Source: Lathyrus oleraceus (Eukaryota; Streptophyta; Magnoliopsida; Fabales; Fabaceae). Taken from it: a stretch of DNA of 64,000 nt. Shown here in pieces: positions 15,411-61,014 of this stretch; position 1 is the stretch's first letter; each line of letters begins with the position of its first letter. The DNA lies in assembly GCF_024323335.1 (NCBI RefSeq), contig NC_066579.1:355949400-356013399 (forward strand), read 5' to 3'. The notes below the pieces were generated by a model that was given only the letters and a program-made list of their open reading frames with translations, was not told where the DNA came from and did not search any database. The translations under genes and the position numbers were made by a program.

Positions 15411-15519
15411 TAGTCGGTCGTGTCGAGTCGTAATTATTCTGTTTCCCCTGTACGGGATAGGTGTTGTTTAACCCTATCAGTACTTATTGTTTTAGCTTGT
15501 TTGGGTTTTCGGAATAGAG

Positions 15520-19891: not shown

Positions 19892-19919
19892 GGTATGTTT
19901 TCGAGGACGAAAACTCTTT

Positions 19920-19933
19920 TAGTGGGGGAGAGT
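19920..19933 (+). other. Chromovirus polypurine tract
   Basis: TAGTGGGGGAGAGT directly precedes the 3' LTR start TGTAACACC at 19934. Confidence 0.85.
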
Positions 19934-22002: not shown

Positions 22003-22007
22003 TCTTT
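22003..22007. repeat. Target site duplication of the chromovirus, right copy (tcttt)
   Basis: Matches 13320-13324. Confidence 0.9.
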
Positions 22008-22119: not shown

Positions 22120-22123
22120 GTTC

Positions 22124-24933
22124 TGTAACACGGTGGGAGAACTGACTTTAGTTAAATGTTGCGGATAGCAAGAGTCGCCACCGACTTTTATTTTATCCAA
22201 AAGGAAAGGACATAAAAGAACAGGAAAGACCTTAAAAAGATTTTGAGTTCGGGGGGTAGGTTATACAAAGGGAAGGTATTAGCACCCTTTATATCCATGG
22301 TTATCCATGGGCTCTTAGTTACTTAGCTCACTTTGTTTGTTTGCAAGAGTGTAGTGTGTGATTAGAAAAATTTCTTTAAGTACTTTGTAATGACCCTCGT
22401 ATGGGTGTATACAAAGCCTAGTTTAGAAATTGTGAGGTGTAAAAGTAATTTTGAAAAGTGTGAGCAAGTAACTATGAGATACCTACCCTAGATTAAGTCT
22501 TTCGTGTTCTCGTATATTCTTTCAATGGTAAGACTGTCCCTATTATTAAGGAATAGGTAGTCATTACCTTGGATGTGTTTAAGGGACGGGCGTAGGGTCA
22601 TCGTATGGTCAGTGAAGGCAACGTAAGAGATGTCTTTAGCAACTCGTAGGGACTATCATCATATTTACCGAAGGGACAAGATCATTATATCGTAGGCAAC
22701 CTCGTAGGGACTTGATCTTTTAAGTTTATAGGGACTTGATGATTTTTCTGTTTGAAGGGACTTTGCTTAAGACACCCCTATTTTCGAGGGACTTGACCAT
22801 TTAAAGAAGGCAACCAAGAGAAATACCCTAGGAAGTACAGATGGCGATCAAAGATCGACTTACGTGTGTGAGTGTTATTTTTTCAGATATTTGTCTTGAA
22901 TTTAATTTTCTAAGTTCAATTATTTACAGTTAGTTTTTTTGCACTCCCTAAATTACTAACCACGCAATAAATATTTACAAAAATAAAAGCAAGAAAAATA
23001 AATTCCTAAACTATTACATGGCTATGGGACAGATACATAATAATCAGGCGAGAAAGAATAAATTTACAACCTATACATTTGTTCCTAATATTATAAATAA
23101 AACAAAATTAAAATAAGGAAAATAATGAAGCAAAAATAGAATAGATAAAAGCAAAATAATAATAAAATAATAAATAAACAATGGTAATAAAGCAATAATA
23201 AAATAACAATAATAATATAGTGATAATAAAAAGGTTAGAATTTTAAAAGAAATTATTTTAAGTTAAACAAGTTAGATTTTTTTAGAAGTTATTAGAAAAA
23301 TATGAGTTTAAAGTAAATTAGTAATAATAAAAGAATTTAAAATACATTAATGTACAAATTATAAAATAAAAGAGTTATATGAAAAATATTAAGTTAGTTA
23401 TTTACAAAATAAATAAAGATTATAGAAAATATCAAATTATTAGATTAATAGGTTTATTATTATTATTCAATTAGAAAAAATGGTCAATTAGATTTTATTT
23501 ACAAAATATATAAGGATTTATTATTATAAGTAAGTAATAAAAAAAAGTTATTAAAATAGTTAGTATTTATTATTTATTTACAAAAAAATATAAAGGTTAT
23601 AGAAAAATATTAAATAATTAATTTAGTAGGTTTTCACGCCCTACATTACTAAACCACGCAGTTAATATAGGATCAATGGCAGGAATTTAAATGGCAGAAA
23701 AATAAAATGGTAGAAAATCAATGGCAGAAAATAAAACCCTAATTATTACAACGCTTTGGTGCAGTTACATAATAAAAATGGCGAAAAGTAAAACTGAAAA
23801 TATTACAAGGGCGAAGCAGTTACAGTGTATGAATAACATAAATATGAGCGAAAATAGGAAATAATAATAAGGTTTGTTAAGGTTTAAGAAAAGGTTTATG
23901 GTTTAGAGGAAACAACACGGTTAAAGTTTTAGGTTTGAAATTTAGAGTTTGTGGCGAAATTGTCAGGATTTAGGAAAAATCAGGGTAGTTAGTTATGAAA
24001 AAAAAATGTGCAGATCTAAAAATATGAATTAAAAAAAAACAACGGCGTTGCTAGCGCAAAATTGCGATCATCGCAACTGGATCGGATCACACAAATGTCA
24101 CGCCTCATACACGTATATGTGAAAACGGCGTATTGACACGATCCGATCCGAAAACATAATCAAATTATAACATAAAATAGAAATATATATCAACAAAATA
24201 GATAAAGTATATATCATATATAAACTATTACCAAGTTGTGTGTACGATAGTATAGATCAGCCACTCTCAGTTTCTCTTTTTTGTTCTGTCTTTTTTGCCT
24301 CTCTCTATCAGTCATGCTAGTAAATATATATAGGAACAAATTAGGTTAATGATAATGGGCCTAAGTTTATTTTGAAACCCAATATTAAATTAAAAACTGA
24401 ATAAAGTTAAATAATTAAAATAGTTAAAATTAAAATAAAAACTAATTAACCTATTTATTTATTCTAGACCCAATATAAAAATAAATAGACTAAAAAAAAA
24501 AAAAAGTCGGGCACCAAAATGCTCGAAAAAATAAAATGAACACGTCAAAATAATCAGCGCGAAATAAATGACTCGAAAAAATACAGCGTTTGGTCGGATT
24601 TTGAAATAAAAATTATGACCGTTTAAACTGCTCAGACTGATCAACATATGACCAAAAATAGTCGTAAAAATATTTTTAGCATGCCAAATTAAACCACGTG
24701 AACCGCAGATTAATGTTACCGACATTTGCAAACTTAAACTTGACATTTTTTCGTTGACTAATTTTAGGCACAGTTAAAAAGTTAATTTGACCAATCTGTT
24801 TGTAAATTCCGAGAAATTATTCCGGCTAATATTAAGACAGAAAAAAAATGTTATGCTATGAAGATGATGCAAATGAATGTGAAACAAAAATTGGTTAGAG
24901 TTAAAAATAGAGGGCAAATTTTGGGGTGCAACA
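22124..24933 (-). mobile_element. Element A 5' LTR
   Basis: Same structure as the left LTR. Scattered substitutions (for example near 22147, 22426 and 22757 relative to the left copy) and one missing segment of about 22 bp show divergence since insertion. A TATA-like CTATATATATTTA lies at 24321-24333 on the minus strand. The R hairpin is at 22295-22310. Confidence 0.9.
24321..24333 (-). promoter_or_regulatory. Candidate TATA box of element A 5' LTR
   Basis: CTATATATATTTA on the minus strand, followed downstream by a pyrimidine/GA-rich stretch. Motif only. Confidence 0.4.
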
Positions 24934-28245: not shown

Positions 28246-30087
28246 AATTGAACAACTAAACCACATGGAACTGCAGGGGATAACAAGAACGGAGTCAGTC
28301 TAGGAACAAACTAGAAAGACACAACTAAACAAGACTCAACCCAATGAGGATATAACTCAGGGGAGTAATTCCATCCCAATACACACTTGGGGAGGAAACT
28401 GAAACAATAATCATCCACGAGGACATAACTCAGTGGGAAATAAAGAAGGAAGGATAGACACTTTCTGCCTATGGGGCTGACTCTATATGGAGAGAACAGA
28501 CACAAACATCTGCTTGGGGAAGAACATTTCACCAATAGCAGGAGATATCAAGCAAATATATATGGCAAGGAATGCAACATGAATATCTGAATGCTATAAT
28601 TATGCATGTATATGCGTGGTTTATGTATGATTAATGCTGACAGACAGACATATCTAACACAAACAGGTCCAGGAAGAACGAACAGACATCCGGTATAACA
28701 TCTCAAAAGAGAAAGGCCAGGCCCACAGGAGAAATCAATCCTGGTGGGGGTGATCTAATACCAGGAGACACCAATCACCGTTGGGGATAGGCAAAGTCAC
28801 AATTGGGGAACATGTAGAGTCACAGCTGGGGATTTTCCAACAATTCTCGGGGACAGGTGACGGGATATCAATAAGATCCGTCGTAGAAGAAACTCTACTG
28901 GGGAACTTATCAAGGAAATGATGTGAAAACTCCGTAGGGAACAACCACCAAACAGATATCCATCAATCAAAATACTCCCTCTCTAACCGCTGAAGAGACA
29001 ACTCTGCTAAGGGGAGAGAGAACCAATTTGCTCCGCCGTGGGGAGGAAATAACACATCTTCCTCATCGCCGTCCAATACTGGAAGAAATCTTCAACCATG
29101 GAGGGGATATAAATTATCAAGCTCGAATTAGGAAAACCTACTGGGGATGAACTGTAGGCGACCATATTGGGGATAGTCTGCTGTAAGCAACCCTACAGGG
29201 GATGAGCTGTAGACAAACTCAAAGGAGACTTCCCTGGCTGAGGGAATCGGAAACGAATCCTTCATCAACACGTGCCATGCTGGGGATGAAAAGGGAAACA
29301 AGCCTTTCACCAACTGCTCTAGACAACTTCATGTTGAGGAAACAACTTATTTGGGAAAGGCAGCTATGTAGGGAACACATCCTTACTCCGCCGAGGACTT
29401 CTACTCATACTGGGGAAAGACAAACTTTCTCGTGAATAGATAGCATATAAACTTTTATCAGTCTATAAGGGATTTTAGGTCAGTCCACACAAGGGACGAG
29501 AACCATATAATTGATGAAACACAAATGCTAGTGTCAGACTTTTCGGGAAGCTGATGATGTATCACTCTTTTTGCGCTCGCTGGGGAGACAACTTGAAAGC
29601 TGATGAAGAGGATATAAGAATGCCAAAATATGAACAAATGTCTTACCCTTTGGAAATCATACTATCATTGGGAGAGCACTGAAGACGTTCCAACTATCCT
29701 TTTAGTCATTGTGAATGTTCACTTTGTTTAGAACAGTTCATAAAAACTTTATTCATTTAAAACAATGATATTTATCAAGTAAAACATGCAAATATTTGTT
29801 AAATAGAAACAAATAAGAGTGCAAAGAATTGGATAAAAGCTCAAATTTATTTGATAGAATGGTAGTCCGCAAATGGTGAGACTCCATGGATCTTTACAAA
29901 TTTGAAATTGGTGATATATATTGGAAAAAGGGCTACATTGAACATAATGACCGTTTCTCCACCAACTCTGAATCCAATGTATTTGAAACTTCAGTTGATG
30001 ATGACTGAGTGAGAACCTTTGACAGAAGACAGCTATAGAACAAAGTCTTGTCAGGATGCAGTTACTTGCCAAATCCCTAATTTTTGC

Positions 30088-30235
30088 CTAGATTGCCCCA
30101 GGGTGAGGTACTCAATCTAGCGGGATATGCTTTTTTTTTCATGTCTCTAACTTTTTCCTGGATCGCCCTTTCGGGTTTTCAATCCACCGAGATGCTCATT
30201 TTTGCCTAAGTCGCCCTTTCGGGTTTTCAACTTAG
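30088..30235 (-). other. Post-pol hairpin array of element B
   Basis: Three hairpins follow the integrase end. CTAAGTTG/CGACTTAG (30206-30235) and GGATTG/CGATCC (30160-30185) both enclose CCC-GAAA-GGG. CTAGATTG/CAATCTAG (30088-30120) encloses ACCTCACCCTGGGG. Stems differ between copies but pairing is kept, with some G-U pairs. Confidence 0.7.
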
Positions 30236-30239
30236 CGAG

Positions 30240-30806
30240 CTATTCTGTTTTTATTTTTAGGCGAAGTATTTCTTGACTGCATCTGAATTCACAGGACGAG
30301 TGAAATCCTCCCCATCCATAGTTGTGAGCAACAAAGCACCGCCTGAAAATACTTCGCCTCTGAACCCATTCAGCCTCAGTCAACTTGGCCTCCATCAAGA
30401 CTCTCATTGATGGGATCTCAACCTCTACAGGGAGCACAACTTCCATGCCATATACAAGAGAGAAAGGGGTTGCCCCTGTTAAAGTACATACAGATGTACG
30501 ATAGCCATGCAAAGCAAATGGCAGCATCTCATGCCAGTCTTTATACGTAACAACCATCTTCTGAATAATCTTCTTGATATTCTTGTTAGCAGCTTCAACA
30601 ACCCCATTCATCTTAGGTCTATAAGGAGAATAATTATGATGGGAAATCTTGAACTTGCTACATAGCTCATTCATCATCTTGTTGTTCAAGTTAGATCCAT
30701 TATCAGTAATGATCTTATCTGGAACACCATATCTGCATATAAGTTGATTCTTGATAAACTTCACAACCACCTGCCTGGTCACATTCGCATATGATGCTGC
30801 TTCAAC
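30240..30806 (-). pseudogene. pol: Element B integrase, catalytic core end and truncated C-terminus
   Basis: It continues the frame of 30810-31973 after an in-frame stop at 30807-30809. Visible are the second catalytic Asp (KIITDNGSN), the Glu context (NGVVEAANK), and TGATPFSLVYGMEVVLPVEV. After EWVQRR a deletion removes most of the C-terminal domain. The sequence resumes out of frame in the segment that gives the usual C-terminal end, about 30 codons from the stop. Confidence 0.85.
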
Positions 30807-37222: not shown

Positions 37223-37346
37223 TGTAGCACCTCAAATTTGCACCTATCATTGTACATACCATCTCATATTAGGTCATAGCATATCATGATCCTTTGCATA
37301 GCATTTGCATTGTCCCCAATTGCCTCAAGAGCAAGCAAGTCAAGAA

Positions 37347-37709
37347 TTAGGTCAAACTGATCAGGAGATCAGTCAACCAATCAAGCAAGGGTGTTTCTCA
37401 AGGAGCAAAGGCCCTAGGGTTTGTCCAACAAGTTCACATGACTTGGAGGTCCATTTGAAGTGTTCAAGTCAAGGGTTGAAGGCTCAGAGGTCACCAGTTC
37501 ATGTACAGACAGTCAAAAACCCTAGAAAGTCAACAGTCAGTCAAAGCAGTGGATGGTGGCCATTCTTGCAGAATTTGGGCACCATGATCAATAATCAAGA
37601 GTCCATATAACTTGGGACATCATTTGAAGTCAAGGTCTCAAGGAATTAGGGTTTGGAATTCATCAGAAGTGCTTCAGTCATCCAAAACCCTAGAAAAGTC
37701 AAAGTTGGT
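37347..37709 (+). promoter_or_regulatory. W-box and telobox cluster in D LTR U3
   Basis: Nine (A/G)GTCAA sites (W-box TTGAC(C/T) on the other strand) lie within about 370 bp. Four teloboxes, AAACCCTA or its complement, lie at 37415-37422, 37517-37524, 37647-37654 and 37685-37692. Motif evidence only. The same cluster recurs in LTR 2 and LTR 3. Confidence 0.5.
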
Positions 37710-38561
37710 CAACTGTGGTTGATTCTTTGGTTTTGATGGATGGAAATGGTTTGAGAGAGCTTATTCATGTCCTAATAGGCCTCATATGTCATGGCAATCA
37801 ACATCATTGAAGAATTTGAAGCCAATCAGAAAATTTCCAAAAATGGAAAGTGGACCTGTAATTTTAACTGCCAAAAATGGAAACTTCTTGATCCTCAGCT
37901 TGCATCATGATACAAGCTTCAAATGAATTTTTGCCCAACATAAAAGTTGAAGATCTTGTTCTCCCATTTTCAAAAAGTCCAAGAACTCTCAATTCCCATG
38001 AATGGTTTGCAAGATATGGTCAAATCATTTTCACATTTTCTTGAACTTCAACAGGCCATATCTCTCAAACCATTTGGCCAAATTTGGTGGGGTTTTTTCC
38101 TACAAACCACATTTTTCCTCCTCTTTCCAAAAATATAAATTTCATCCTCCAAAACCTTGCCAATCAAAATGGCATTTTTGGCCTTGACTTTATTCATTTC
38201 AAGTTTGACCAACCATTGACTTTTTGAATTAAGGCTTTTCACACCATTTGGCCAATTGGGAAATGTTTGGTGTGTTATTTGAGACATGTTTTAAGGCCCA
38301 AATCATGCAGAACTTATACCTCCATGTGCATATTTTGGAAATTAGCAAATATGCATTTTGGTTCATTTAAGTAGAACAAGTTCAGCACTTCATGAGCAAA
38401 CAACAAACAGCAAATACAAGGGTCATTTGCAGCATGACTAAGGCCCAATTCGTGCAGCCTTCACACCTCCACTTCCACATGTGCAAAGTTAGCAAATATG
38501 CATTTTTGTTCATTTAAGTTAAACAAGATTACCATTCAATTAGCATGGCTTAAACAGCAAA

Positions 38562-38569
38562 TATAAAGG
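38562..38569 (+). promoter_or_regulatory. Candidate TATA box of D LTR 1
   Basis: TATAAAGG is followed 50-70 bp later by a CT-rich patch (TTCTCTCTTCTCTCTTTC), the layout of a plant core promoter. It recurs at 50523-50530 and 62488-62495. If right, U3 is about 1.35 kb and R/U5 about 4 kb. Confidence 0.55.
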
Positions 38570-41370
38570 CATTTTTCTGCCAATTCCAAGCCCTAGTAGC
38601 AGCTGCAGACCACAAAAATTCTCTCTTCTCTCTTTCTTGCATTTTGACACTTTGAGAAATTCTGTCAAAAACTTCAAGAGAACCACGAGTACCTTTGCTT
38701 CCTTCATCACCTGGACTTCATTTAGAGCTCATTACAAGCATCAAAACTCAGCTGGAAGTGGATTTGATTCAACTGTTTTCCTCAAGTATTCTTCCATGGC
38801 AGCATGCGTGTATCTTCATATCAAGTGTCCATGAGCTAGGATCCTTCACCATTCACCATTGGAAGCACAAATCATCATCTGTTCGAGCTTGTCTTGGCCA
38901 AACAGCAACTGCATCTCAGATTTCTTCAAGAATAATAGGTTTCCATGAAAATTAATGATAGATTTGTCTTTACCATGCTCTAATGCTTCTATTGGTATGA
39001 TCATTAGCCATTTCTGGAAAATCTCATTCATGAACAAAGTTTGATGTTCATAGTTCTTTTGGTCGATTCAATGTGTATGTGTTGTTTAAGTGGAAACTAA
39101 TGATAGATTCATGATGTCCATGCCATGCTGAACATTTGCATATATTTAGTTTTGATTTCTGGGATTTTTGTGGAAAATACGAATTTGGAGAAGATGAACA
39201 TACATGTGTTACTGTAGAAAACCCTAGAATTTCCAGAAACTGGGTATTTTGCTGCGTGCTACTGTTCCATTGAGGAACCGACCAATCACATTATTTGGTT
39301 TTGCTGGCTGAAACGCAGCGTTCTGTTTAGTGATGGCCAGAATTACAGCATTGCCACTCGGTCAACCATGTTTGACCTTCCCTTCATGTTATTTGTTCAT
39401 GTTTGGTTCCAATTGTACCTCAACTTCAACAATTCATTTCTCACTCGTTTCAAATCCAAATTTCATGAAACTTTTTCCATCATGATCACATGATTGTCTA
39501 GTTTTTTATCATTATTTTTAATAATTTTTTGGATCATTGGATTTTAAATGGCTCTAGGGTTTGTGAAATGTGACCAATTCTTGATACATGTTGCCAAGAC
39601 CATTGTGAAATAATGATGATGCATCCATTGGTTCTGAAATTTTTTGTGGAGAAACTAGACACATTCAACTTTGTTTTGATATAAAGTTTGTGGATTTCTC
39701 ATTTGTGGATTGTGTGATATGATTTTTTGAAGTAGGGTGTGACAACTTGTGTCACACCAATGATGTGCATTTTCATGAATTTTAATGACATACTTCCTGA
39801 CCTCCAAATGATCCAATTGTTTGCATAAGCCTTCTCTCACATGTCTAGTCCATGTATGAATTTTCTTGGAATTAATTGTGCTGTTTTCCATTTATTTAAG
39901 ATTTTTCTTCCCTGCCTAGTCAATGGTTGACTTTTTGTGCTACATGTTGCCAAATCCTTTGGGAAATTCTCATATCTTATTGTATGATCATGAAATTTCA
40001 TATGTGATAACTAGACATCTTGAGCTTTGCATTGGTGTTAATCTCATTCATTTCTCATCTGTTTTCAATTTGATATGATTTTTTGAAGTTGACCCATGTT
40101 TGTTGACCTTCATTGTGCATGCTTAAATTTGGTTTGACTTCTTGATTTTCATTAACTGCCTTCCTCTCATCCAAATGCCATGAAATTTGACATGCTTACC
40201 ATGTTAGATGTTAGGATTGAATGTGATTTATTTGATGATTTTTGAGATTGTTTGGGTTGACTTTTGATGCAAGTCATTCTGTTGACTTTTGTGTGCTTTC
40301 ATTTGCCATGCCTTGCCTTCTTTTGCTTATGAGTTGATGATGATGCATGATGTGATTGTGAGTCCAATTGAAATAGCTTCTTGAATGTTTGACCTTGACT
40401 TTGGTTGACTTTTCTTTGCTGTTTTGACTTTTTCTTTCATCCTTGACCCTAGGCTAGTCCTAGTGGTCTTTTGAGCTTACAATTGAGTTCCTGTTTCAGG
40501 TTAAGCACCAATGCCTCAAAGATCATTCAAACTTGTTTGAACTTGATTGTTTATCATATGCTAACCTTTGTTTTGTAGGTTTGACTCATGTGTTTGAGTC
40601 TTGTGCCTTGCACAGTTGACCATCTGTGTTGACTGTTTATCAATTCCTTTTGATTTAAACTTTTGAACTGTTTGCTGATTGTTTTGACTCTTTTCAGGTA
40701 CTTTAGTTGCTTAAGTTCTCTGAACTTGATTTGCTTTGCTTTTTAGCAACTTGCTTGAGGTATAATCTCTTTTACTTCATGTAGTCTGGAGACCCGGTCT
40801 GTTATTTGGCCGGGCAAACTGTCTGAAGTCCTCCTTAAGAGGCCATGCTTGTGTGTGTTTAAAATTGTACAGAGTCAAAGACCTCCTAAGTGAAGAGGCA
40901 ATTGGCAGAACCAAGGGATATGCAATCTATCCCCTGCTATTCAGTGTGTCTTCTGTCTTGCTCACACTACTGTGTTGATGCATTTCAGACAAAAACCCAA
41001 GATCTTGTGCAATTGCACAGTTGAGTCAGTATCAAATGTGTAGAAGGGTTCCCACTTTCTGAACCCACACATTCTTGTCAAATGCTCTCCCAGGCCAGGG
41101 ATAGAAGCAATGAGGCACACCCCTCATCTCCTTTCATCTGCTTCACCTTAGCCCCTCAATGGCAAGGTTAAGAGCAACACTTCACCCCATTCCAGAGGTT
41201 TGTTTGTTGAGGTTGATATGACCCCTCAACTAAAACCTAACCCTTGTGTGAGCCTTTTGTGTGTATATAGTGTGTGCTATCTGCGATTGTGATTGCTTTG
41301 CTTCTTAGGCTAGCTTAGACTTGCTTCCTGTGCAAGTTAGGTTTAGTTTAGACTAATCCTTGCTTGCTTT

Positions 41371-42330
41371 CGCCCTCGTTGCGATCCTTTCTCTCGCCCT
41401 CGTTGCGATCGAGCCGTTCCCTTTCTCTTGCCCTAGTTGCAATCGAGACCTTTGTCCCTCCGTAGCCGAACTACGGCAACTCTGATTCTCATGTCCAGAT
41501 GAGATACGTAGGCACGAGATGCGATGTCTTGTCGAGTTTGACTAACAACTAACACTAACCCTTTTCTCTCGCCCTCGTTGCGATTGAGACCTCCCCCTTC
41601 TCTTGCCCTAGTTGCAATCGAGACTCTTGCTTCCTGTGTAAGCCTTGTCTAGGATAGGTTGGCCCTTGTGCCATTTAGCTAGAAACCTTAACTTAGGGTT
41701 GACTTTGCATGACAACATCTAGGCTCGAGTCGTAGTCTCCCTAGAGTTGTGTCTCCCTCTGTTATCTGGTTAAGCTAGTCCTTTGTCCCTGCGTAGGGGA
41801 ACTACATCGCCCTGATCTTCACACCAGATGAAGTATGTAGGCAGGAGATTGAGCTGATCTCTCCGGGCGCCCTTTTTCTTTTTTGTGTGTGTTGTTTGAC
41901 ATTTGCTAAGCTCGAGTGCCTGACTCTTTAGCAATTCGTCGTCTGTTTGTTTGTGTGATTGCTTGACAGTTATAGGCTCGAGTCCCCGACTCCCTATCAA
42001 CTTGTTGTGTTGTTGTGTGCTTGGAAGCCGATGTAAGTCCATCGAGTGGCATTTGGGTTCCAGTGTGCGTGTGTTTAGGTTCGGATGCTGACATAAGTCC
42101 AGTGATTGGCAGTCGGGCTCCACGTTTGCCTTTGTCTTGTTTTGTTTGAGTGCGTGTCAGCCGAGCTACGAATGCTCTGATTCTTCTCTCGTCCGAGAAG
42201 ATACGTATGCATAGGATGCGACATCCTAGCGAGCATGTGTCGTTTCCCCAGTCCGAACTACTTCGACTCTGATGTCTATGTCTGATAGACTAAGTAGGCC
42301 CAGGATACGATGTCCTGCCGAGTCAGTTTC
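41371..42330 (+). repeat. Structured repeat modules near the end of D LTR 1
   Basis: Four copies of a module have GAACTAC or GAGCTAC, then CTCTGAT in most, a hairpin, (GA)TACGTAGGCA-like sequence, and in three copies a second hairpin with loop CGA. First-hairpin stems are TCTCAT/ATGAGA (41487-41504), CTTCA/TGAAG (41817-41833), CTTCTC/GAGAAG (42183-42200) and GTCTAT/ATAGAC (42274-42290). Second-hairpin stems include TAGGATG/CATCCTA (42212-42228) and CAGGATA/TGTCCTG (42301-42317). Five copies of CGCCCTCGTTGCGAT or TGCCCTAGTTGCAAT lie between 41371 and 41625. The LTR 2 copy is at 53332-54291. Confidence 0.75.
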
Positions 42331-42417
42331 AGTCAGTTTCTTTTGTCTCTTTTCAGCCAGTGTGTGTGTGTTTGAGCAGTGTTTAGCAACCATTTTCCTT
42401 CCTTTTGTGCGTGGATC

Positions 42418-42433
42418 CCGTAGAGTACTACGG
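42418..42433 (+). other. R-region hairpin of D LTR 1
   Basis: CCGTAG-AGTA-CTACGG, followed by GGGGTGCTAATACCTTCCC. The LTR 2 copy is at 54379-54394. Equivalent hairpins with different stems are at 3068-3083 and in A. Confidence 0.65.
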
Positions 42434-42567
42434 ATGCGTAGGGGTGCTAATACCTTCCCTTCGCATAACCGACTCCCGAACCCATTCTCTTTGGTCGCGA
42501 GACCATGTTCTTTCCCAGGTTTACTCTGAGCGTTTCCTTTCCCTCTTTTGGGATAAATAACGCACGG

Positions 42568-42577
42568 TGGCGGCTCT
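42568..42577 (+). other. Partial copy of the primer site inside D LTR 1
   Basis: TGGCGGCTCT differs by one base from the first ten bases of the true primer site 55 bp downstream. The LTR 2 copy is at 54529-54538. Confidence 0.6.
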
Positions 42578-42622
42578 GTTGTTTCTTTCTTTTCCCGCCG
42601 GTTTTTCGCGTAATGCGACAGC

Positions 42623-42640
42623 TGGCGACTCTGCTGGGGA
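42623..42640 (+). other. Primer binding site of D unit 1 (tRNA-Arg type)
   Basis: TGGCGACTCTGCTGGGGA lies two bases after the LTR end. Identical to the Ogre-type site of element A. Confidence 0.9.
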
Positions 42641-43643
42641 CTATAGAGAAGTTGACCTATGCTGGTCCATCTTCCCTGAGCGAGTCTCTCCTAGCGCTCT
42701 CTAGGTTAGGGCTTTGGTTGCTTTGCACTGTTTTATTGCATTCTTTGTATATATTTGCATTTACTGTTTGCATTTATTATTTGCATTAATGTTTGCATTC
42801 ATTCATATTCATCTGTTCATCTGGCTGTGTTTCTCTGTTTGGGGTGGGAGTTACTCGAGGTAAAAGGCCCAATACCCAGGCTATGAGTGAAATCTAGGAA
42901 ACCTAGGAATAGAGTGATTCATGGGAAGCGGGTGGTGTACGCCACTTAGCGGAACATTGACATCACGAGCAGTTCAGACCCTGGTGGGATATTATCGGTG
43001 CATACATCGGGTGTGCACAGGATGATATTCTGCGAAAGGTTATTTATGCTGCGTTTCTCTCGACCTTACCCTGGCCTAGATGACACCCGTGAGTGGGGGG
43101 GAATGATCATTTTAACAGGTACAGTTGGTGACTCCTGGTACTGATAGTGACTACGAGTTATATTTCTGGACGCCGGAGGTTTGACCCTGGTATTGATCAG
43201 AGGGTTCCGTTTATTTCGGATCCCTGGGCTGAATTTGAGGGTACTCGCTCAGATGGTGACTCAGTTCTCCAGACTTGGGTTCAGATGCCAGTTGATCAGG
43301 TTGACTTTGGGTTTCAGATGTTTGTGATCAGAATTCAAGCCGAAGCTTTGACCCTGTGCCTTGAGACGCACAGCTTGACCAGTCATGTTGCATCATTTGC
43401 ATCATAGCATGTTTATTTTCCAAAAATAGTAATGCATGAAAATGAAAAAAAAAGTTAACTCGCATACGCATATCCTTTTCAGGATCATTCATGACAAAAT
43501 AATACTCATATCATGCATATCATGCACATAGCATCCTTGCATTACAGACATGTTTGGGGAGAAACTTCTCACTTCAGTTCCTGACTGAGACAGGATTGTT
43601 GATCACCGTCCGCACCGCGACCAGACTCAATCATCAAAGAAGT
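42641..43643 (+). other. 5' leader of D unit 1; ORF1 absent
   Basis: Non-coding. The ORF1 seen in element A is missing. An 86-codon frame at 43147-43407 is preserved in both units but has no recognisable motif. I do not call it a gene. Confidence 0.6.
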
Positions 43644-44480
43644 ATGGATCAGGTTCAAGCTGAGCTAGCTGAGATGAGGGCGAACATGGCCCAGTTCATG
43701 AACATGATGCAAGGAGTCGTTCAGGGGCAAGAGGAGCTGCGTGCCTTAGCCCAGAGACTGGAAGCCGTGATTCTACCAGTCCACTGTGCTCCACCAGTGG
43801 ATGTACCCGTTCATGAGAATGCTGCTGTCACTATTCTCGTCGATGATTATGCTGTGGGTGATGAATTGAGGGGGATCAGAATCAGTGAACCGCCTCTTGC
43901 TGCAGAGACTGTTAATATCAGAGCAACCCGCACTCCGGTTCGCCATCCTGGCTCTTCAAGTTCTTCCGGTTCTAAGAAGACATACTCTGGGGCACCCAAA
44001 AGGGGAGAGATTGAAACAAATGCTGTGCACCGTCGGAGGAGTGCAAACAGAGGACAGAATCGTCAGGCTGCTGCTGTGACTATTCCAGCAACTCAACCTC
44101 AACAGCAACAGAGGAGACCAGCTCAGCAGCATCAGCGTCAGCAACATCGTCCTCAGCAGCAGGCTTCTCAACCTCACAATGGTAATCAAGCTGGTACAAG
44201 TAATGAGAGGAAGGAGATCATTTTTGATCCAATCCCCACGTCCTACGCCGAACTGTATCCCTCTCTGTTAGAGCGGAACTTGATTACGCCCAGAGACCCG
44301 CCGCCCATACCTGTCAACCCTCGGTGGTGGTATAGGCCTGAACAACATTGTGTGTATCATTCGGGTGCTCCCGATCATGATGTGGATAGTTGTTTCCAGC
44401 TGAAGATGAAGGTTCAAGACCTTGTGAGGTCAGGTATTCTGATCTTGGAGGATTTAGGTCCCCGTGTTAATCAAGCCTGA
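43644..44480 (+). pseudogene. gag: Truncated Gag of D unit 1 (coiled coil and zinc knuckle, no capsid core)
   Basis: 278 residues from ATG 43644 (MDQVQAELAEMRANMAQFM), a coiled-coil N-terminus to about residue 45. A Ser- and basic-rich stretch and a Gln-rich stretch (about 150-190) follow. The segment TSYAELYPSLLERNLITPRDPPPIPVNPRWWY comes next, then a zinc-knuckle-like CVYHSGAPDHDVDSC. The capsid core present in B (SLSGDALRWYIGLES region) is deleted, but the frame stays open. The protein could still fold a coiled coil and a nucleic-acid-binding knuckle, so a partial Gag function in trans is conceivable but unproven. The unit 2 copy differs by at most a silent-looking change. Confidence 0.75.
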
Positions 44481-44637
44481 AGATAACAAGTCCTGGGCTG
44501 GCGCCGACTTTTTCTTCAGAAGGGTTGTTCAGAAAACAGAAGCTGCTGATGCAAGAGATACTGACAGTTGTCATCCCCGGCGGGATCTATCACAATTGGG
44601 TCACTGTGGGCGTTCCTACAACTGTTCATAAGTCTTT
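44481..44637 (+). pseudogene. Tail of the protease exon, D unit 1
   Basis: After the Gag stop, sequence corresponding to the end of the protease exon remains (VIPGGIYHNWVTVGVPTTVHKSL), comparable to FVIPGGICNNWVVVDVPTVIHKS in B. The protease catalytic region is deleted. Confidence 0.65.
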
Positions 44638-44907
44638 GTAATAATCACTTTGTTTAAAAACCCTTCTCCCATGCCAAAAGGAGAAGTGATGACATTGTTG
44701 GCAATATTTTGTGCAATGATATTTTCATTCAAATAAATGCATGTTAAACATTTGTTTTTTCCATTTGTTTTCCCTTTTCGCTTTTTGCATGAAATTGGTG
44801 ATCACAAAAAAACCTTTAAAAAAAAGAATAAAAGCAATCTTTTCATCTGCATAACGATTGTCTTGTTTATTTTTCAAAAAGCTTTTCATCTCTAAATCAT
44901 TATGCAG
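44638..44907 (+). other. Intron of D unit 1 (270 bp)
   Basis: A GTAATAATC donor and an ATTATGCAG acceptor, in the same place as the intron of B. It is kept although the flanking enzyme domains are deleted. Confidence 0.7.
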
Positions 44908-45192
44908 GTTGTTTCTCAAACCCATTGAACATAATGATCGGACGTCATCTCCCAATTTTGAATTCCCTGTATTCGAAGCGGAAGAAGATGATGTTGAAGG
45001 GATTCCTGACGAGATCTCCCGACTTCTTGAGCAAGAAAAAAGATCACTCAGCTGCATCTCGAGAATCAGCAGAACAGCCAACTGGGGCATCAAAAAAAAA
45101 AGAGAAAGAAAAAAAATCAATAAAAAAAAAAACAAAGGAAGAGAGAAAGCAAAATCAAAAGCAAAATCAAAAAAAAAAAAAAAAAAAAGAAA
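44908..45192 (+). pseudogene. Pre-RT linker followed by a purine-rich tract, D unit 1
   Basis: The exon starts with LFLKPIEHNDRTSSPNFEFPVFEAEEDDVEGIPDEI, the acidic linker before RT. From about 45090 it turns into about 100 bp of nearly pure A/G sequence. RT, both RNases H and the integrase core that should follow are absent. Confidence 0.75.
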
Positions 45193-45519
45193 GATAGCAC
45201 CCTCAAAGTCCCAAGTTGGCTGATGCTGAATTCAATCAAAAAGAAAAGATCAACTGCCATGTGTCATGGTCGGTTATATCAGCAGGGAGTGAAGAAAGCA
45301 TTCAACAAGAAGGTCAAGCCTCGTGTGTTCCGAGGAACCTTGTGCTCAAGAAAGTCTTGTCTTTCGTGCCCGAGTCCAGGGGCAAGTGGACCCCAAGCTA
45401 TGAACGTCCATTTGTTGTCAAGAGAGCCTTTTCAGGCAATGTTTCGACACTTACAACAATGGATGGAGAAGTTCACTCGTCCTGTGAATTCCGATGCAGT
45501 CAAGAAATACTTCGCCTAA
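45193..45519 (+). pseudogene. Integrase C-terminal remnant, D unit 1
   Basis: The frame resumes with STAMCHGRLYQQGVKKAFNKKVKPRVF and ends FTRPVNSDAVKKYFA before TAA 45517-45519. Between about 45335 and 45467 the integrase-like reading (LVLKKVLSFVPESRGKWTPSYE) is in another frame. Two small indels therefore leave and regain the frame. No catalytic residues remain. Confidence 0.8.
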
Positions 45520-45540
45520 ACAAAAAAGCAGAATAGCTCG

Positions 45541-45691
45541 CTAAGTCGAACACCCCAAAGGGCGACTTAGGCAAAAAGGAGCGTCTCGGTGGATTGAAAA
45601 CCCGAAAGGGCGATCCAGGAAAAAGTTAGAGACATTGAAAAAAGGAATTTGCATCCCGCTAGATTGATCACCTCACACTGGGGCAATCTAG
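45541..45691 (+). other. Post-pol hairpin array, D unit 1
   Basis: Three hairpins start 22 bp after the pol stop. They are CTAAGTCG/CGACTTAG (45541-45570), GGATTG/CGATCC enclosing CCC-GAAA-GGG (45591-45616), and CTAGATTG/CAATCTAG (45659-45691). Spacers include GGCAAAAA and TTAG(A/G)GA. Confidence 0.75.
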
Positions 45692-46934
45692 GCAAAAATT
45701 AGGGATTTGGCAAGTAACTGCATCTTAACAAGACTGTGCTGTACATCTGTCATCCGTCAGGGATTCTCGATCCGTCGTCGACTGAAGCTTTGAATACATC
45801 GAAAATTCAGAGTGGTAGAGAAAAGGTCATTATGTTCAATGTAGCCCTCTCCAATGTATATCACCGATTTCAAACTTGTACAAATCTATGGAGTCTCGCC
45901 CTTTGCAGACTACCATTCCATCACATCAATTTGAGCTTTTATCCAATTATTTGCACTCTTATTTGTTTCAACTCGACAGATGTTTTGCATGTTTTAACTG
46001 ATAAAGTATCATTGTTTTCAAAATAAACACAAATTTTCAAAAAAATTGTTCTTAAACAAAGTGAACATTCACGATGATGGAAGGATACTTAGGAGACCCA
46101 CAGTGCTCTCCCGGGGGTGGTATGATTACCAACAGGTAAGACAACCGTTCGTATCTCGAGCATGACTGTATCTTTGTCCTGCAGAACCTCGTATGGTCTC
46201 TCCTCAGTGAAGGTGCCCGATGCAGTGTTGTTTGAAGTTGTTCATCTTCACGTTCCCGGCAGTACAGATTCTTACTCCAAATCCCACTTTCATCCCCCTG
46301 TTGGAATTAACCCTTTGTGCTCATCCCGATGATGACTGGTTACTTTTCCGTGGTTTTCTGCCTACAAACCGGTAGATGTAATCCCCTCTTTGTAGTTATC
46401 AGTATCCGCTTTGCGGTATTGATATTCTTTCCCCTTTGGATACTTGCCTTGATCAAGCAGTATTGTCCCCATTGGGTCTGCCCTTTCTTTTTGGATATTT
46501 GCTCCGAGTTAGCAACTTTTATCCTCTTTTGATTGGTCATCTTTTGCGTACCTAGTCCTGGTACCCTGATGCCTTTCTTTTCGGTCGATTATTCATTTAA
46601 CAACCTACAACCCGGTTATGGATAATCTTCCATGCGAGTGTATTATCTACGTTTTGACGGCTATAGATAATATGTCTTATGTTTTTCCGGTATTCATACC
46701 GAAGGAGTTTCCGACGATCAGGTCGATGTACTCATGGCACTCAGGCCAATTTTCCGATATTCAGACCGAAGAAGTTTCCGACGATCAGGTCGATGTACTT
46801 ATGGCATTCGAACCAATTCACGCTTTGGTCGGTCACCCGTTTCATACCTACAACCCGGTATCCTTGGTGTTCCTTCCTGTTTGCTCGCTGTTGTGACCTT
46901 GATCCCCGAGTGGAGCGGGTTTCACGAAATATTT
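45692..46934 (+). other. 3' UTR of D unit 1, proximal non-coding part
   Basis: The block to about 46080 is homologous to the B 3' UTR. Beyond it are irregular repeats with ACAACCCGGTAT-like and GACCGAAG(A/G)AGTTTCCGACGA sequences, the latter twice near 46700-46800. No coding sequence supported. Confidence 0.6.
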
Positions 46935-47372
46935 CTCCAGCAGAGTTTATCCTACCAGAGGATTGGACGAGTTATCATAGCAGATTGATATCCTGCATCC
47001 CCAGCTGAGTTGATTCTACTCGTGAACTGTGTGGGTCGTCCCCGGCGGAGTAACAGTTATTCCCCAAAGCAGAGTTTATCGTATCTGAGGTTTGTACAAG
47101 CCTTATCCCCAGAGAGTTGCCTGGTTTAGCTTCCCCCAGCGGAGCTTTTATTTTCCCCAAGCGGAATTTTTGTGGATTGATTGGGCTATTCCTCAGCAGT
47201 TTACCTTTGTTTTCCCCTAGCAGAGTTGCTTTTACTCCCCAGCAAGTTGCCTTGTCCTCCTCTAATGGATTCGTATGGTTGTTCCCCCAGCAGTTGTCTT
47301 GTTGTTCCCCCAGTGGATTTATCTTGAAGATTCCTCAACACAGTCGTCCTGTGTATTTCTCCCGCAGAGTTC
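46935..47372 (+). repeat. Array of TCCCCAGCAGAGTTGCC-like repeats, D unit 1
   Basis: About ten degenerate copies at 15-70 bp spacing, for example 46935-46947, 46998-47012, 47061-47076, 47106-47121, 47213-47229, 47236-47251 and 47358-47372. The consensus is the reverse complement of the element's primer binding site, with one C to T change that would still allow a G-U pair. Confidence 0.75.
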
Positions 47373-47748
47373 TTATCATATTGCATTGCATATAGTAATC
47401 ATTGCATCCTCAAAACTGCGTAGCATTTCCATCCCATATGGAGCATTACGCCATAGAAAAATTCAAACATATGCATTCATGTGCTCGAAACCACATCAGA
47501 CTGTATCCCCGGCAAAGGCAGGTTATTTTGTTCAACATCAGCACAGCAAGTCAGCTACAGTTGCTTCGACAGTATTCAGATTTGATTATCCCCACAGAGG
47601 TTTATTTCCTCACCCGATGGTGACAGAAAGTTTGTCTCTCCCCAGTGAGACCCCCAGCAAGTGTTCAGCCTTGCCTCGACATATCAGATACTATCCTTGT
47701 GATACCAGTAAGTGTCATGTCAACACCCGCGTGTGTCTTCTTTGTTTT

Positions 47749-49049
47749 GGTGTCGGTAAACGCCATTGTTTCGGTGTCGGTAAACATCGAGTTCCACCCA
47801 GTCATCGGTAGATGTCTGGTTATTTTTTTGGTGTCGGTAAACGCCATTGCTTCGGTGTCGGTAAACATCGAGTCTTTCTTTCAGTCATCGGTAAATGTCT
47901 GATAAATCCCCAGCTAGAAATCCCCAGTAGAGTCATCTGTAAATGTCCTATCTGGCTTCCAGTTGCAAATATTTGTTTGTCTCTCACCAATAAATTTCTC
48001 ATCCCCAGTCATCGGTAAATGTCTGGTCTTTCTTTTTGATGTCGGTAAACATCATCTTTCGATGTCGGTAAACATCGAGTCTCACCCAGTCATCGGTAAA
48101 TGTCTGGTCTTTCTTTTTGATGTCGGTAAACATCATCTTTTGATGTCGGTAAACATCATCTTTCGATGTCGGTAAACATCGAGTCTCACCCAGTCATCGG
48201 TAAATGTCTGGTTTTTTTTTTGGTGTCGGTAAACGCCATTGCTTCGGTGTCGGTAAACATCGAGTCTTTCTTTCAGTCATCGGTAAATGTCTGATAAATC
48301 CCCAGCTAGAAATCCCCAGTAGAGTCATCTGTAAATGTCCTATCTGGCTTCCAGTTGCAAATATTTGTTTGTCTCTCACCAATAAATTTCTCATCCCCAG
48401 TCATCGGTAAATGTCTGGTCTTTCTTTTTGATGTCGGTAAACATCATCTTTCGATGTCGGTAAACATCGAGTCTCACCCCAGTCATTGGTAAATGTCTGG
48501 TCATTCTTTTTGATGTCGGTAAACATCATCTTTCGATGTCGGTAAACATCGTGTCTCATCCCAGTCATCGGTAAATGTCTGGTCATTCTTTGTTCTCTCG
48601 TTAATAAAATCAAAATCCCCAGAAATCGTCGGTAAACGTCTTGTCTGGTATCACAACAAAGATTTTGTTCCTCCCCAAGCGGAGATGCCATCGGTAAATG
48701 GCCCAGTTTTCTTCGATATCGGTAAATATCGAATTCCCAGTTGCAGCAGCCATCGGTAAATGGCCTTGATATCGGTAAATATCAGGTTTGCTTTGAAGCC
48801 ACCATCGGTAAATGGTCTTGCTTCCTTCCTACATCAAATTATTTCCCAGCAGCCATCGGTAAATGGTCTGGCTGAAGTTGATATCGGTAAATATCAAAGC
48901 TTTAACCATCGAAGTTTGTTTTCCCCAGCCGCCATCGGTAAATGGTCGTGCTGAAGTTGATATCGGTAAATATCAAGGTCCCAGTTTTAACCATCGGTAA
49001 ATGGTTTTGCTGTTCTGAAGTTGTCATACAGTTGTCATCGGTAAATGAC
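47749..49049 (+). repeat. Array of about 35 CGGTAA-loop hairpins, D unit 1
   Basis: Each copy has a (mostly) CGGTAA loop flanked by complementary arms of 3-8 bp. Arm pairs include GGTGT/ACGCC, TCGATGT/ACATCGA, TGATGT/ACATCA, CAGTCAT/ATGTCTG, GCCAT/ATGGC, ACCAT/ATGGT, TTCGATAT/ATATCGAA, TTGATAT/ATATCAA, AACCAT/ATGGTT and GTCAT/ATGAC. A segment near 47830-48085 is duplicated with a 392-bp shift. The open frames here (repeating VGK) come from the DNA repeat. Confidence 0.85.
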
Positions 49050-49170
49050 GTGGTTTTTCTTGTATTATATCCAGTCGGTGCAAATTTCTACGGTTCTTTG
49101 GTATTCAATCCCTGTTTAACCTGAAAGTCTGACAGCCATTGCTATCATCCGTTCGGGTTCCCAGCTGATT

Positions 49171-49183
49171 GAATAGGGGCAGC
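49171..49183 (+). other. Polypurine tract of D unit 1
   Basis: GAATAGGGGCAGC directly precedes LTR 2. Confidence 0.85.
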
Positions 49184-52100
49184 TGTAGCACCTCAAATTT
49201 GCACCTATCATTGTACATACCATCTCATATTAGTTCATAGCATATCATGATCCTTTGCATAGCATTTGCATTGTCCCCAGTTGCTTCAAGAGCAAGTAAG
49301 TCAAGAATTAGGTCAAACTGATCAGGAGATCAGTCAACCAATCAAGCAAGGGTGTTTCTCAAGGAGCAAAGGCCCTAGGGTTTGTCCAACAAGTTCACAT
49401 GACTTGGAGGTCCATTTGAAGTGTTCAAGTCAAGGGTTGAAGGCTCAGAGGTCACCAGTTCATGTACAGACAGTCAAAAACCCTAGAAAGTCAACAGTCA
49501 GTCAAAGCAGTGGATGGTGGCCATTCTTGCAGAATTTGGGCACCATGATCAATAATCAAGAGTCCATACAACTTGGGACATCATTTGAAGTCAAGGTCTC
49601 AAGGAATTAGGGTTTGGAATTCATCAGAAGTGCTTCAGTCATCCAAAACCCTAGAAAAGTCAAAGTTGGTCAACTGTGGTTGATTCTTTGGTTTTGATGG
49701 ATGGAAATGGTTTGAGAGAGGTTATTCATGTCCTAATAGGCCTCATATGTCATGGCAATCAACATCATTGAAGAATTTGAAGCCAATCAGAAAATTTCCA
49801 AAAATGGAAAGTGGACCTGTAATTTTAACTGCCAAAAATGGAAACTTCTTGATCCTCAGCTTGCATCATGATACAAGCTTCAAATGAATTTTTGCCCAAC
49901 ATAAAAGTTGAAGATCTTGTTCTCCCATTTTCAAAAAGTCCAAGAACTCTCAATTCCCATGAATGGTTTGCAAGATATGGTCAAATCATTTTCACATTTT
50001 CTTGAACTTCAACAGGCCATATCTCTCAAACCATTTGGCCAAATTTGGTGGGGTTTTTTCCTACAAACCACATTTTTCCTCCTCTTTCCAAAAATATAAA
50101 TTTCATCCTCCAAAACCTTGCCAATCAAAATGGCATTTTTGGCCTTGACTTTATTCATTTCAAGTTTGACCAACCATTGACTTTTTGAATTAAGGCTTTT
50201 CACACCATTTGGCCAATTGGGAAATGTTTGGTGTGTTATTTGAGACATGTTTTAAGGCCCAAATCATGCAGAACTTATACCTCCATGTGCATATTTTGGA
50301 AATTAGCAAATATGCATTTTGGTTCATTTAAGTAGAACAAGTTCAGCACTTCATGAGCAAACAACAAACAGCAAATACAAGGGTCATTTGCAGCATGACT
50401 AAGGCCCAATTCGTGCAGCCTTCACACCTCCACTTCCACATGTGCAAAGTTAGCAAATATGCATTTTTGTTCATTTAAGTTAAACAAGATTACCATTCAA
50501 TTAGCATGGCTTAAACAGCAAATATAAAGGCATTTTTCTGCCAATTCCAAGCCCTAGTAGCAGCTGCAGACCACAAAAATTCTCTCTTCTCTCTTTCTTG
50601 CATTTTGACACTTTGAGAAATTCTGTCAAAAACTTCAAGAGAACCACGAGTACCTTTGCTTCCTTCATCACCTGGACTTCATTTAGAGCTCATTACAAGC
50701 ATCAAAACTCAGCTGGAAGTGGATTTGATTCAACTGTTTTCCTCAAGTATTCTTCCATGGCAGCATGCGTGTATCTTCATATCAAGTGTCCATGAGCTAG
50801 GATCCTTCACCATTCACCATTGGAAGCACAAATCATCATCTGTTCGAGCTTGTCTTGGCCAAACAGCAACTGCATCTCAGATTTCTTCAAGAATAATAGG
50901 TTTCCATGAAAATTAATGATAGATTTGTCTTTACCATGCTCTAATGCTTCTATTGGTATGATCATTAGCCATTTCTGGAAAATCTCATTCATGAACAAAG
51001 TTTGATGTTCATAGTTCTTTTGGTCGATTCAATGTGTATGTGTTGTTTAAGTGGAAACTAATGATAGATTCATGATGTCCATGCCATGCTGAACATTTGC
51101 ATATATTTAGTTTTGATTTCTGGGATTTTTGTGGAAAATACGAATTTGGAGAAGATGAACATACATGTGTTACTGTAGAAAACCCTAGAATTTCCAGAAA
51201 CTGGGTATTTTGCTGCGTGCTACTGTTCCATTGAGGAACCGACCAATCACATTATTTGGTTTTGGTGGCTGAAACGCAGCGTTCTGTTTAGTGATGGCCA
51301 GAATTACAGCATTGCCACTCGGTCAACCATGTTTGACCTTCCCTTCATGTTATTTGTTCATGTTTGGTTCCAATTGTACCTCAACTTCAACAATTCATTT
51401 CTCACTCGTTTCAAATCCAAATTTCATGAAACTTTTCCAATCATGATCACATGATTGTCTAGTTTTTTATCATTATTTTTAATAATTTTTTGGATCATTG
51501 GATTTTAAATGGCTCTAGGGTTTGTGAAATGTGACCAATTCTTGATACATGTTTCCAAGACCATTGTGAAATAATGATGATGCATCCATTGGTTCTGAAA
51601 TTTTTTGTGGAGAAACTAGACACATTCAACTTTGTTTTGATATAAAGTTTGTGGATTTCTCATTTGTGGATTGTGTGATATGATTTTTTGAAGTAGGGTG
51701 TGACAACTTGTGTCACACCAATGATGTGCATTTTCATGAATTTTAATGACATACTTCCTGACCTCCAAATGATCCAATTGTTTGCATAAGCCTTCTCTCA
51801 CATGTCTAGTCCATGTATGAATTTTCTTGGAATTAATTGTGCTGTTTTCCATTTATTTAAGATTTTTCTTCCCTGCCTAGTCAATGGTTGACTTTTTGTG
51901 CTACATGTTGCCAAATCCTTTGGGAAATTCTCATATCTTATTGTATGATCATGAAATTTCATATGTGATAACTAGACATCTTGAGCTTTGCATTGGTGTT
52001 AATCTCATTCATTTCTCATCTGTTTTCAATTTGATATGATTTTTTGAAGTTGACCCATGTTTGTTGACCTTCATTGTGCATGCTTAAATTTGGTTTGACT

Positions 52101-59712: not shown

Positions 59713-61014
59713 GGTGTCGGTAAACGCCATTGTTTCGGTGTCGGTAAACATCGAGTTCCACCCAGTCATCGGTAGATGTCTGGTTATTTTTTTGGTGTCG
59801 GTAAACGCCATTGCTTCGGTGTCGGTAAACATCGAGTCTTTCTTTCAGTCATCGGTAAATGTCTGATAAATCCCCAGCTAGAAATCCCCAGTAGAGTCAT
59901 CTGTAAATGTCCTATCTGGCTTCCAGTTGCAAATATTTGTTTGTCTCTCACCAATAAATTTCTCATCCCCAGTCATCGGTAAATGTCTGGTCTTTCTTTT
60001 TGATGTCGGTAAACATCATCTTTCGATGTCGGTAAACATCGAGTCTCACCCAGTCATCGGTAAATGTCTGGTCTTTCTTTTTGATGTCGGTAAACATCAT
60101 CTTTTGATGTCGGTAAACATCATCTTTCGATGTCGGTAAACATCGAGTCTCACCCAGTCATCGGTAAATGTCTGGTTTTTTTTTTTGGTGTCGGTAAACG
60201 CCATTGCTTCGGTGTCGGTAAACATCGAGTCTTTCTTTCAGTCATCGGTAAATGTCTGATAAATCCCCAGCTAGAAATCCCCAGTAGAGTCATCTGTAAA
60301 TGTCCTATCTGGCTTCCAGTTGCAAATATTTGTTTGTCTCTCACCAATAAATTTCTCATCCCCAGTCATCGGTAAATGTCTGGTCTTTCTTTTTGATGTC
60401 GGTAAACATCATCTTTCGATGTCGGTAAACATCGAGTCTCACCCCAGTCATTGGTAAATGTCTGGTCATTCTTTTTGATGTCGGTAAACATCATCTTTCG
60501 ATGTCGGTAAACATCGTGTCTCATCCCAGTCATCGGTAAATGTCTGGTCATTCTTTGTTCTCTCGTTAATAAAATCAAAATCCCCAGAAATCGTCGGTAA
60601 ACGTCTTGTCTGGTATCACAACAAAGATTTTGTTCCTCCCCAAGCGGAGATGCCATCGGTAAATGGCCCAGTTTTCTTCGATATCGGTAAATATCGAATT
60701 CCCAGTTGCAGCAGCCATCGGTAAATGGCCTTGATATCGGTAAATATCAGGTTTGCTTTGAAGCCACCATCGGTAAATGGTCTTGCTTCCTTCCTACATC
60801 AAATTATTTCCCAGCAGCCATCGGTAAATGGTCTGGCTGAAGTTGATATCGGTAAATATCAAAGATTTAACCATCGAAGTTTGTTTTCCCCAGCCGCCAT
60901 CGGTAAATGGTCGTGCTGAAGTTGATATCGGTAAATATCAAGGTCCCAGTTTTAACCATCGGTAAATGGTTTTGCTGTTCTGAAGTTGTCATACAGTTGT
61001 CATCGGTAAATGAC
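59713..61014 (+). repeat. Array of about 35 CGGTAA-loop hairpins, D unit 2
   Basis: Same array as unit 1 with a few substitutions (for example near 60865) and one base more in a T-run near 60180. Confidence 0.85.

Follow-up and report, generated by a model that had tools for sequence, protein, structure and literature searches.

Retrotransposons of the Tat/Ogre group carry hypervariable tandem repeats in their 3'UTR, which can expand to satellites (Macas et al., 2009, as cited in the accessible part of PMC7004042). Ogre (Ty3/gypsy, Tat clade) has an additional RNase H (aRH) between the RNase H and integrase domains (PMC6317226, accessible part), and makes up much of legume genomes, accounting for 45% of that of Lathyrus sativus (PMC7004042, accessible part). 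Family-specific tandem repeats between POL and the 3' LTR are also described for Retand, of the related Tat lineage (PMC11963269, accessible part). Among RNA viruses, MS2, STNV and HBV have multiple dispersed packaging signals, many stem-loops with a common loop motif that is recognised by the coat or core protein (PMC6281560 and PMC7612645, accessible parts).

Here we describe an array of small hairpins in a 64,000-nt stretch of Lathyrus oleraceus DNA (hereafter, the window). Lathyrus oleraceus is a name for pea. The array shares with the described Tat/Ogre repeats a location between pol and the 3' LTR and short tandem units, and it seems to have been expanded into a satellite at C1:247.417-247.428 Mb; its paired arms and near-constant loop are what sets it apart from them. 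It differs from the Retand repeats in the same respect, since no stem-loop property is reported in the accessible part of PMC11963269. The word "hairpin" is absent from the accessible main text of PMC7004042 and PMC11963269, and that of the latter contains neither "stem" nor "loop", with "palindrom" appearing just in a reference title. Searches by words and by sequence found no description of hairpins or conserved loops at Ogre 3'UTR repeats in literature that was in part accessible only as excerpts. The initial annotation knew of no description of the element; these searches agree with it for the covarying hairpin property, but tandem repeats at this Ogre location were already known (PMC7004042, accessible part). 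As in the viral signals, several stem-loops present a common loop motif on different stems; unlike those signals, the pea hairpins are clustered in about 1.3 kb of a retrotransposon 3'UTR, and a protein that binds them is only hypothetical. A literature search on the candidate packaging signal yielded only a review on viral RNA probing.

The host element and its hairpin array

Legume Ogre LTRs are long, about 5 kb. The array lies in the 3'UTR, before the 3' LTR, of an element that is non-autonomous, chimeric and of Ogre type (Ty3/gypsy), with the following features:

37223..42620, + strand: LTR 1, 5,398 bp; two more LTRs begin at 49184 and 61149, the latter truncated by the window end
42623..42640, + strand: TGGCGACTCTGCTGGGGA, which we take to be the primer binding site
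43503..44480, + strand: gag-like open frame resembling gag proteins of pea and not followed by a complete pol
45429..46143, + strand: end of the integrase and proximal part of the 3'UTR, with 83% similarity to the minus-strand Ogre at 29639-30349
47749..49049, + strand: hairpin array, 34 units with an exact CGGTAA loop and 4 with one-base loop variants
47746..48591, + strand: upper part of the array, triple units of about 81 nt in tandem duplication
48622..49052, + strand: lower part of the array, more diverged, mainly GATAT/ATATC alternating with xCCAT/ATGGx, spacers dissimilar
49172..49183, + strand: presumed polypurine tract AATAGGGGCAGC, directly before the 3' LTR
59713..61014, + strand: second array copy, in the adjoining element copy, with 34 CGGTAA loops at 59718-61009

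Two Ogre traits were found in this element, the long LTR (5,398 bp) and a tandem-repeat 3'UTR between pol and the 3' LTR. The aRH was found only in L379, an array-bearing relative in which gag, protease, RT, RNase H and integrase domains precede the array (RVT_1, RT_RNaseH and RVT_3, then integrase in the next frame, so that the RT and integrase frames differ). The internal region of the window element holds pol fragments without a complete pol. The last 276 residues of its gag-like frame are 89% identical to a pea protein, and a knuckle-like motif (C-X2-H-X5-H-X4-C) can be read in it by eye; a Pfam search of the frame 43503..44480 gave no match. Similarity to the minus-strand Ogre of the same window (74-83%) is seen in pieces of 44205-46915. 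L379 is matched by pieces between 47170 and the LTR (78-95%) and by part of the gag start (78%), and has additional short matches at 45377-45625 (76-87%). By these similarities, the window element (42600-49300) is a chimera of two Ogre families, with the affinity switching at about 46915-47170.

The stretch 37223-64000 reads LTR-int-LTR-int-LTR, two near-identical non-autonomous Ogre copies with a common middle LTR. LTR 1 and LTR 2 show 12 differences over 4,998 sites compared, and the two internal regions differ at 8 of 6,562 sites, plus 4 gaps. The arrangement is possibly the product of a recent recombination.

Some further observations concern the composition and neighbourhood of the element. 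The region 46143-49186 is strongly one-stranded in its short words (26 CCCAG and 22 CCCCA, with 0 CTGGG and 0 TGGGG), and the minus-strand Ogre has 16 CCCAG and 18 CCCCA against 1 of each reverse complement. On the minus strand, 6970-7430 belongs to another Ogre-like 3'UTR, in which ATACGA repeats lie between partly pairing, wobble-bearing arms of weak statistics and which includes 87-bp repeats at 7145-7386. A Ty3/gypsy element at 13324-22003, with identical 2.07-kb LTRs, is nested in another element, whose LTR copies lie at 3865-6697 and 22123-24933.

The count of about 35 hairpins in the initial annotation agrees with the 34 exact loops, which span 47754 to 49044, and the four near-variants (CGGTAG at 47806, CTGTAA at 47937 and 48329, TGGTAA at 48487). 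It placed the array just 5' of the polypurine tract; the last loop ends 140 nt before the 3' LTR. Outside both arrays, CGGTAA occurs once on the same window strand. A unit consists of a stem of about 5-8 pairs capped by a six-base loop, which is CGGUAA in most cases and C-N-G-U-A-A in a looser definition. The triple units of the upper part each consist of two R-type hairpins (GATGT/ACATC or GGTGT/ACRYC) and one Y-type hairpin (GTCAT/ATGTC). A both-strand scan for stems of at least 5 pairs and loops of 4-8 bases gave CGGTAA as the commonest loop (n=36, 18 per copy), the second-commonest (n=8) being made by the arms of adjoining units; with stems of at least 4 pairs and unpaired loop ends, CGGTAA makes up 20 of the 26 hexaloops in the array.

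Pairing of the arms and constancy of the loop

Many units are duplicates, and redundancy was therefore reduced before pairing was scored. After deduplication, the 10 distinct 5+5 arm pairs had 44 of 50 positions in Watson-Crick pairs, compared with 29.8 when the right arms were shuffled (p ~5e-5). A set of 18 units whose outer flanks are mutually less than 60% alike, with identities mostly near 0.25, gave 82 of 90 against 56.4 (p ~2e-5). In this set TCGGTAAA is constant, the loop by the way the units were selected and the closing pair without such selection, and pairwise identity at arm positions 2-5 is 0.24-0.71. In 18 distinct rows, pairing is 85.7% and the covariation score 0.625 in the original register; once the register is slid by 1-3 columns, the two do not exceed 45.4% and 0.212, respectively. 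The claim of complementary, compensatory arms thus stands above shuffled-arm controls with redundancy removed, and the same pattern recurs in 51 sampled arrays.

The stems are less free than the initial annotation had supposed. All 34 exact-loop units close with T-A and have either A-T or G-C at pair 2. The initial annotation cited GTCAT/ATGAC as an example; 7 of the 34 units read GTCAT/ATGTC, with a T.T mismatch at pair 4, and the unit at 48630 has just 3 of 5 arm positions paired.

Mean hairpin stability is nearly equal on the two strands (sense -5.5, antisense -5.4 kcal/mol). Compared with shuffled sequence, the upper array folds better (z -5.98, 20 shuffles); taken as a whole, the lower array shows no such advantage (z -0.59). 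Among seven upper units, variable columns number 9 of 60 in hairpins against 11 of 19 in spacers (p 0.0005); for substitutions alone the hairpin-spacer difference has p 0.052, and loop against spacer p 0.12.

A covariance model built from 19 units gave 75 matches in the window at E up to 10, 74 of them inside the two arrays and one at 36581 on the minus strand (E 0.17). No Rfam family reached its gathering score anywhere in the window. A more distant Ogre in the window has eight CCCAGTAACCGGT-like motifs whose stems are not consistent, and the best match of the covariance model in its 3'UTR has E 3.5; loss of pairing in relatives that keep the loop had been named as grounds for rejecting the idea, and these unpaired motifs go part-way toward it. 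Other words of 4-8 bases were screened in seven other stretches of the window, and the strongest among the matches listed were GATG in 45520-47740 (2.91 of 5 pairs among 333 words, p at its floor of 0.0005), ATTAC within element 1 (p 0.001, 808 words), TCCT in the 3'UTR of the distant Ogre (p 0.002, 591 words) and, when ranked by pairing, ATACGA in the 3'UTR of element 1 (4.33 of 5 pairs, p 0.046, 254 words).

To follow the loop across the genome we used 51 arrays, 11 of them not chosen by an A.C unit and 40 picked for an A.C unit at pair 2. With the arms fixed to 12 known pairs and the loop left open, these yielded 1,129 hairpins, in which the loop is CGGTAA in 875, CAGTAA in 66, CTGTAA in 42, CGATAA in 29 and TGGTAA in 20, others being rarer; CNGTAA fits 990. 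Single changes at loop positions 1-6 number 20, 115, 34, 1, 9 and 4, so that position 2, with 115 of 183, is the most tolerant. The 11 unpicked arrays gave 270 hairpins, 196 with CGGTAA, and single changes of 4, 46, 3, 0, 1 and 1. A shared-versus-private test of position 2 against the others was not significant (p 0.83). The changes C1>T, G2>A and G3>A may reflect decay of methylated cytosines, which could not account for G2>T (42).

Among 169 six-base words in the 51 arrays, CGGTAA had 28 arm pairs present in at least three arrays, with 4.39 of 5 positions paired against 3.55 when shuffled (p 0.00025); within the best 14 of the 169 words by pairing, just CAGTAA and CGATAA besides it fell below p 0.018. 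Three related arrays, L371, L372 and L375, have amplified CGATAA and CGTT units beside 7-8 CGGTAA units. All CGTT words in them are paired at 108 of 160 positions against 90.7 shuffled (p 0.0002), and their CGATAA units have abundant sense G.U wobbles and pair no better than shuffled. Two of them, L371 and L375, carry other loops even though about 105 nt close to the polypurine tract match the window at 94-96% identity. The invariance that the initial annotation ascribed to the loop therefore needs qualifying: position 2 is tolerant and the rest change little, but the CGATAA and CGTT units of L371, L372 and L375 go against a single specific loop.

The Smaug/Vts1 recognition element has a CNGG loop, and the pea loop resembles it in that it begins C-N-G, varies at the second base and sits on stems that differ in sequence; the fourth base of the pea loop is U, in 1,117 of the 1,129 hairpins, and not G. 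The iron-responsive element has a CAGUGN hexaloop with a C1-G5 pair. The pea loop likewise presents C-N-G-U in a hexaloop on a variable stem, and CAGUAA variants exist; unlike the iron-responsive element, it has A as the fifth base in 1,071 of the 1,129 hairpins and thus lacks the C1-G5 pair. Readings as an iron-responsive element, a Pumilio-like site or a U1 site were given low weight or abandoned because of loop positions 2, 4 and 5.

Stem changes and spread through the genome

Genome-wide counts were taken over 3.795 Gb. The pattern RTCGGTAAAY followed by another within 5-35 bases occurs 92,922 times, compared with 13 for the backward-read pattern. With 4-57 exact loops per sampled array, the genome would therefore hold several thousand array-bearing elements. 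The opposite pair-2 class, YTCGGTAAAR, gives 6 adjacent pairs, which is chance level (backward control 31). Since this class occurs only at chance level, the stems look like a few ancestral ones altered mainly by paired transitions, rather than the freely varying stems first described. Seven perfect 5-bp arm pairs are present in at least three of the 51 arrays, and five pairings among the seven differ by one paired transition. Ten further arrays hold 202 exact-loop units with 54 distinct 6+6 arm pairs, the closing T-A being sometimes C-G.

We then compared the intermediates of these swaps by the number of the 51 arrays that have them. Sense G.U outnumbers A.C at pair 4 (41 against 1), at pair 5 (34 against 6), at pair 3 (8 against 2) and in a second pair-4 case (3 against 1). 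Pair 2 shows the opposite trend (3 against 42), an A.C count that is inflated because 40 arrays were picked for that unit. In the 11 unpicked arrays, G.U against A.C is 11 to 0 at pair 4, 0 to 0 in the second pair-4 case, 8 to 0 at pair 5, 2 to 0 at pair 3 and 0 to 2 at pair 2. Pair 4 also has two swaps by transversion, for one of which a T.T form is present in 46 of the 51 arrays. Genome-wide, A.C exceeds G.U at pair 2 (511 against 228), against the trend of the other swaps. Two further genome-wide counts are 4,139 for GATGTCGGTAAACGTC, the U.G form at pair 3, and 403 for ACCATCGGTAAATGGC, the A.C form at pair 5; these belong to different pairs and are not comparable with each other.

Types found in at least two of the 11 unpicked arrays fill 7 G.U cells against 1 A.C cell (p 0.035); when sharing is not required, all types fill 11 G.U and 8 A.C cells. 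Transitions among private one-step variants are roughly symmetric (A>G 12, T>C 11, C>T 11, G>A 14), and among variants common to 2-7 arrays G>A (19) exceeds C>T (10). The ratio of shared to private arm changes is 10:15 for those that keep pairing and 12:30 for those that break it, which is not significant (p 0.24).

At G000:C1:247417619-247428043, at least 13 matches of one hairpin variant lie within 10.4 kb, which suggests that an array was expanded there into satellite-like DNA. Predicted proteins from short JGI and ENA contigs (P0094-P0100) are apparently mere translations of related hairpin arrays. By their codon-determined bases, pairs 2 and 3 in P0094-P0099 are Watson-Crick or sense wobble except in one unit (P0099), and pair 4 is mismatched in several units; for P0100, inspection by eye points to GGTGT/ACACC. 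A gag protein search of viral contigs found no relative. Pattern scans of prokaryote and IMG/VR contigs returned, among the matches listed, only L320 and L328 with at least three CGGTAA hairpins having arms of at least 4 pairs, which we read as coincidence. These are bacterial tandem hairpins with a TCGGTAAA core (L328 2815-3030, L320 2970-3340); L328, from a Verrucomicrobiaceae MAG, has CGATGTCGGTAAACATCG with compensating arm changes, probably a coincidence.

Competing explanations and a putative RNA function

A near-constant loop on stems that change in matching pairs points to a working RNA structure. Because the swaps at pairs 3-5 run through sense G.U and the loop positions differ in tolerance, it is probable that pairing in the sense RNA was under selection while the elements replicated. 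The main rival, and a strong one, is template-switch mutation with tandem amplification. It is quite conceivable, if short of probable, that the array has no function, and that tandem amplification and strand transfer by reverse transcriptase spread the core, fold-back template switching copied the arms and concerted amplification homogenised the loops. The initial annotation held that ordinary tandem duplication makes no compensatory arms, which overlooks template switching, a process able to create and repair hairpin stems (PMC8794818, accessible part); the hypervariable tandem repeats of Ogre/Tat 3'UTRs are moreover thought to be born in replication (PMC7004042, accessible part). In the distant Ogre, CCGGT-type motifs stand unpaired, and the core may thus be older than the arms; the amplified units of L371 and L375 have differing loops, and rare variants look neutral. 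Template switching would nevertheless be expected to make double changes in one step and to leave no surplus of sense G.U, whereas G.U forms are frequent at pairs 4 and 5 and outnumber A.C at pair 3. Nor does it predict a variable loop position 2 with near-fixed positions 4-6, or spacers more variable than hairpins, although indels or slippage in the spacers may account for the latter.

It is improbable that the conserved property resides in DNA, as a repeated site for a DNA-binding protein or as hairpins of single-stranded cDNA during reverse transcription: the excess of A.C over G.U at pair 2 and folding energies that favour neither strand are in keeping with this, but a duplex protein site should not have variable yet complementary arms, and the G.U bias at pairs 3-5 favours sense RNA. 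Very improbable, in our estimate, is a role of the loop as a mimic of a 5' splice site (G-GUAA) that would bind U1 snRNP and affect splicing or polyadenylation of the element. We take GGUAA in the loop to match five bases of the U1-complementary consensus, and the region 46143-49186 has CCCAG on its sense strand (26 against 0 CTGGG). However, the tolerant loop position 2 would be splice position -1, the A at +5 presumably makes complementarity to the consensus weak, and the CGATAA and CGTT loops of related arrays break the match.

We tentatively favour the reading that the hairpins act in the element's own RNA and were kept by selection as a putative multivalent binding site, perhaps for Gag. 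In the sense (genomic) transcript, the array would form small hairpins of RNA towards the end of the 3'UTR. That its repeated loop is a cis-acting landing site for a trans factor, most likely Gag/nucleocapsid, aiding packaging or assembly, is a possible but doubtful extension. Gag is the first candidate because a non-autonomous element needs packaging in trans and this one kept the array; the relevant part of Gag/nucleocapsid would be supplied by coding relatives, allowing efficient RNA packaging or assembly. The window element has lost most of pol and kept the array, as might be expected of a cis signal. An unlikely, more specific version is that the lineage evolved a clustered, multivalent packaging or assembly platform under G.U-mediated selection, exploited by non-autonomous chimeras, with subfamilies changing the loop together with Gag; tens of hairpins per genomic RNA would then offer a C-N-G-U-A-A loop to the element's own Gag.

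We know of no established purpose for the long repetitive 3'UTR of Ogre. The covarying array makes this purpose testable, as its loops and arms are defined targets for mutation and it is a candidate packaging signal, and it provides a large natural set of hairpins for telling selection from template-switch mutation.
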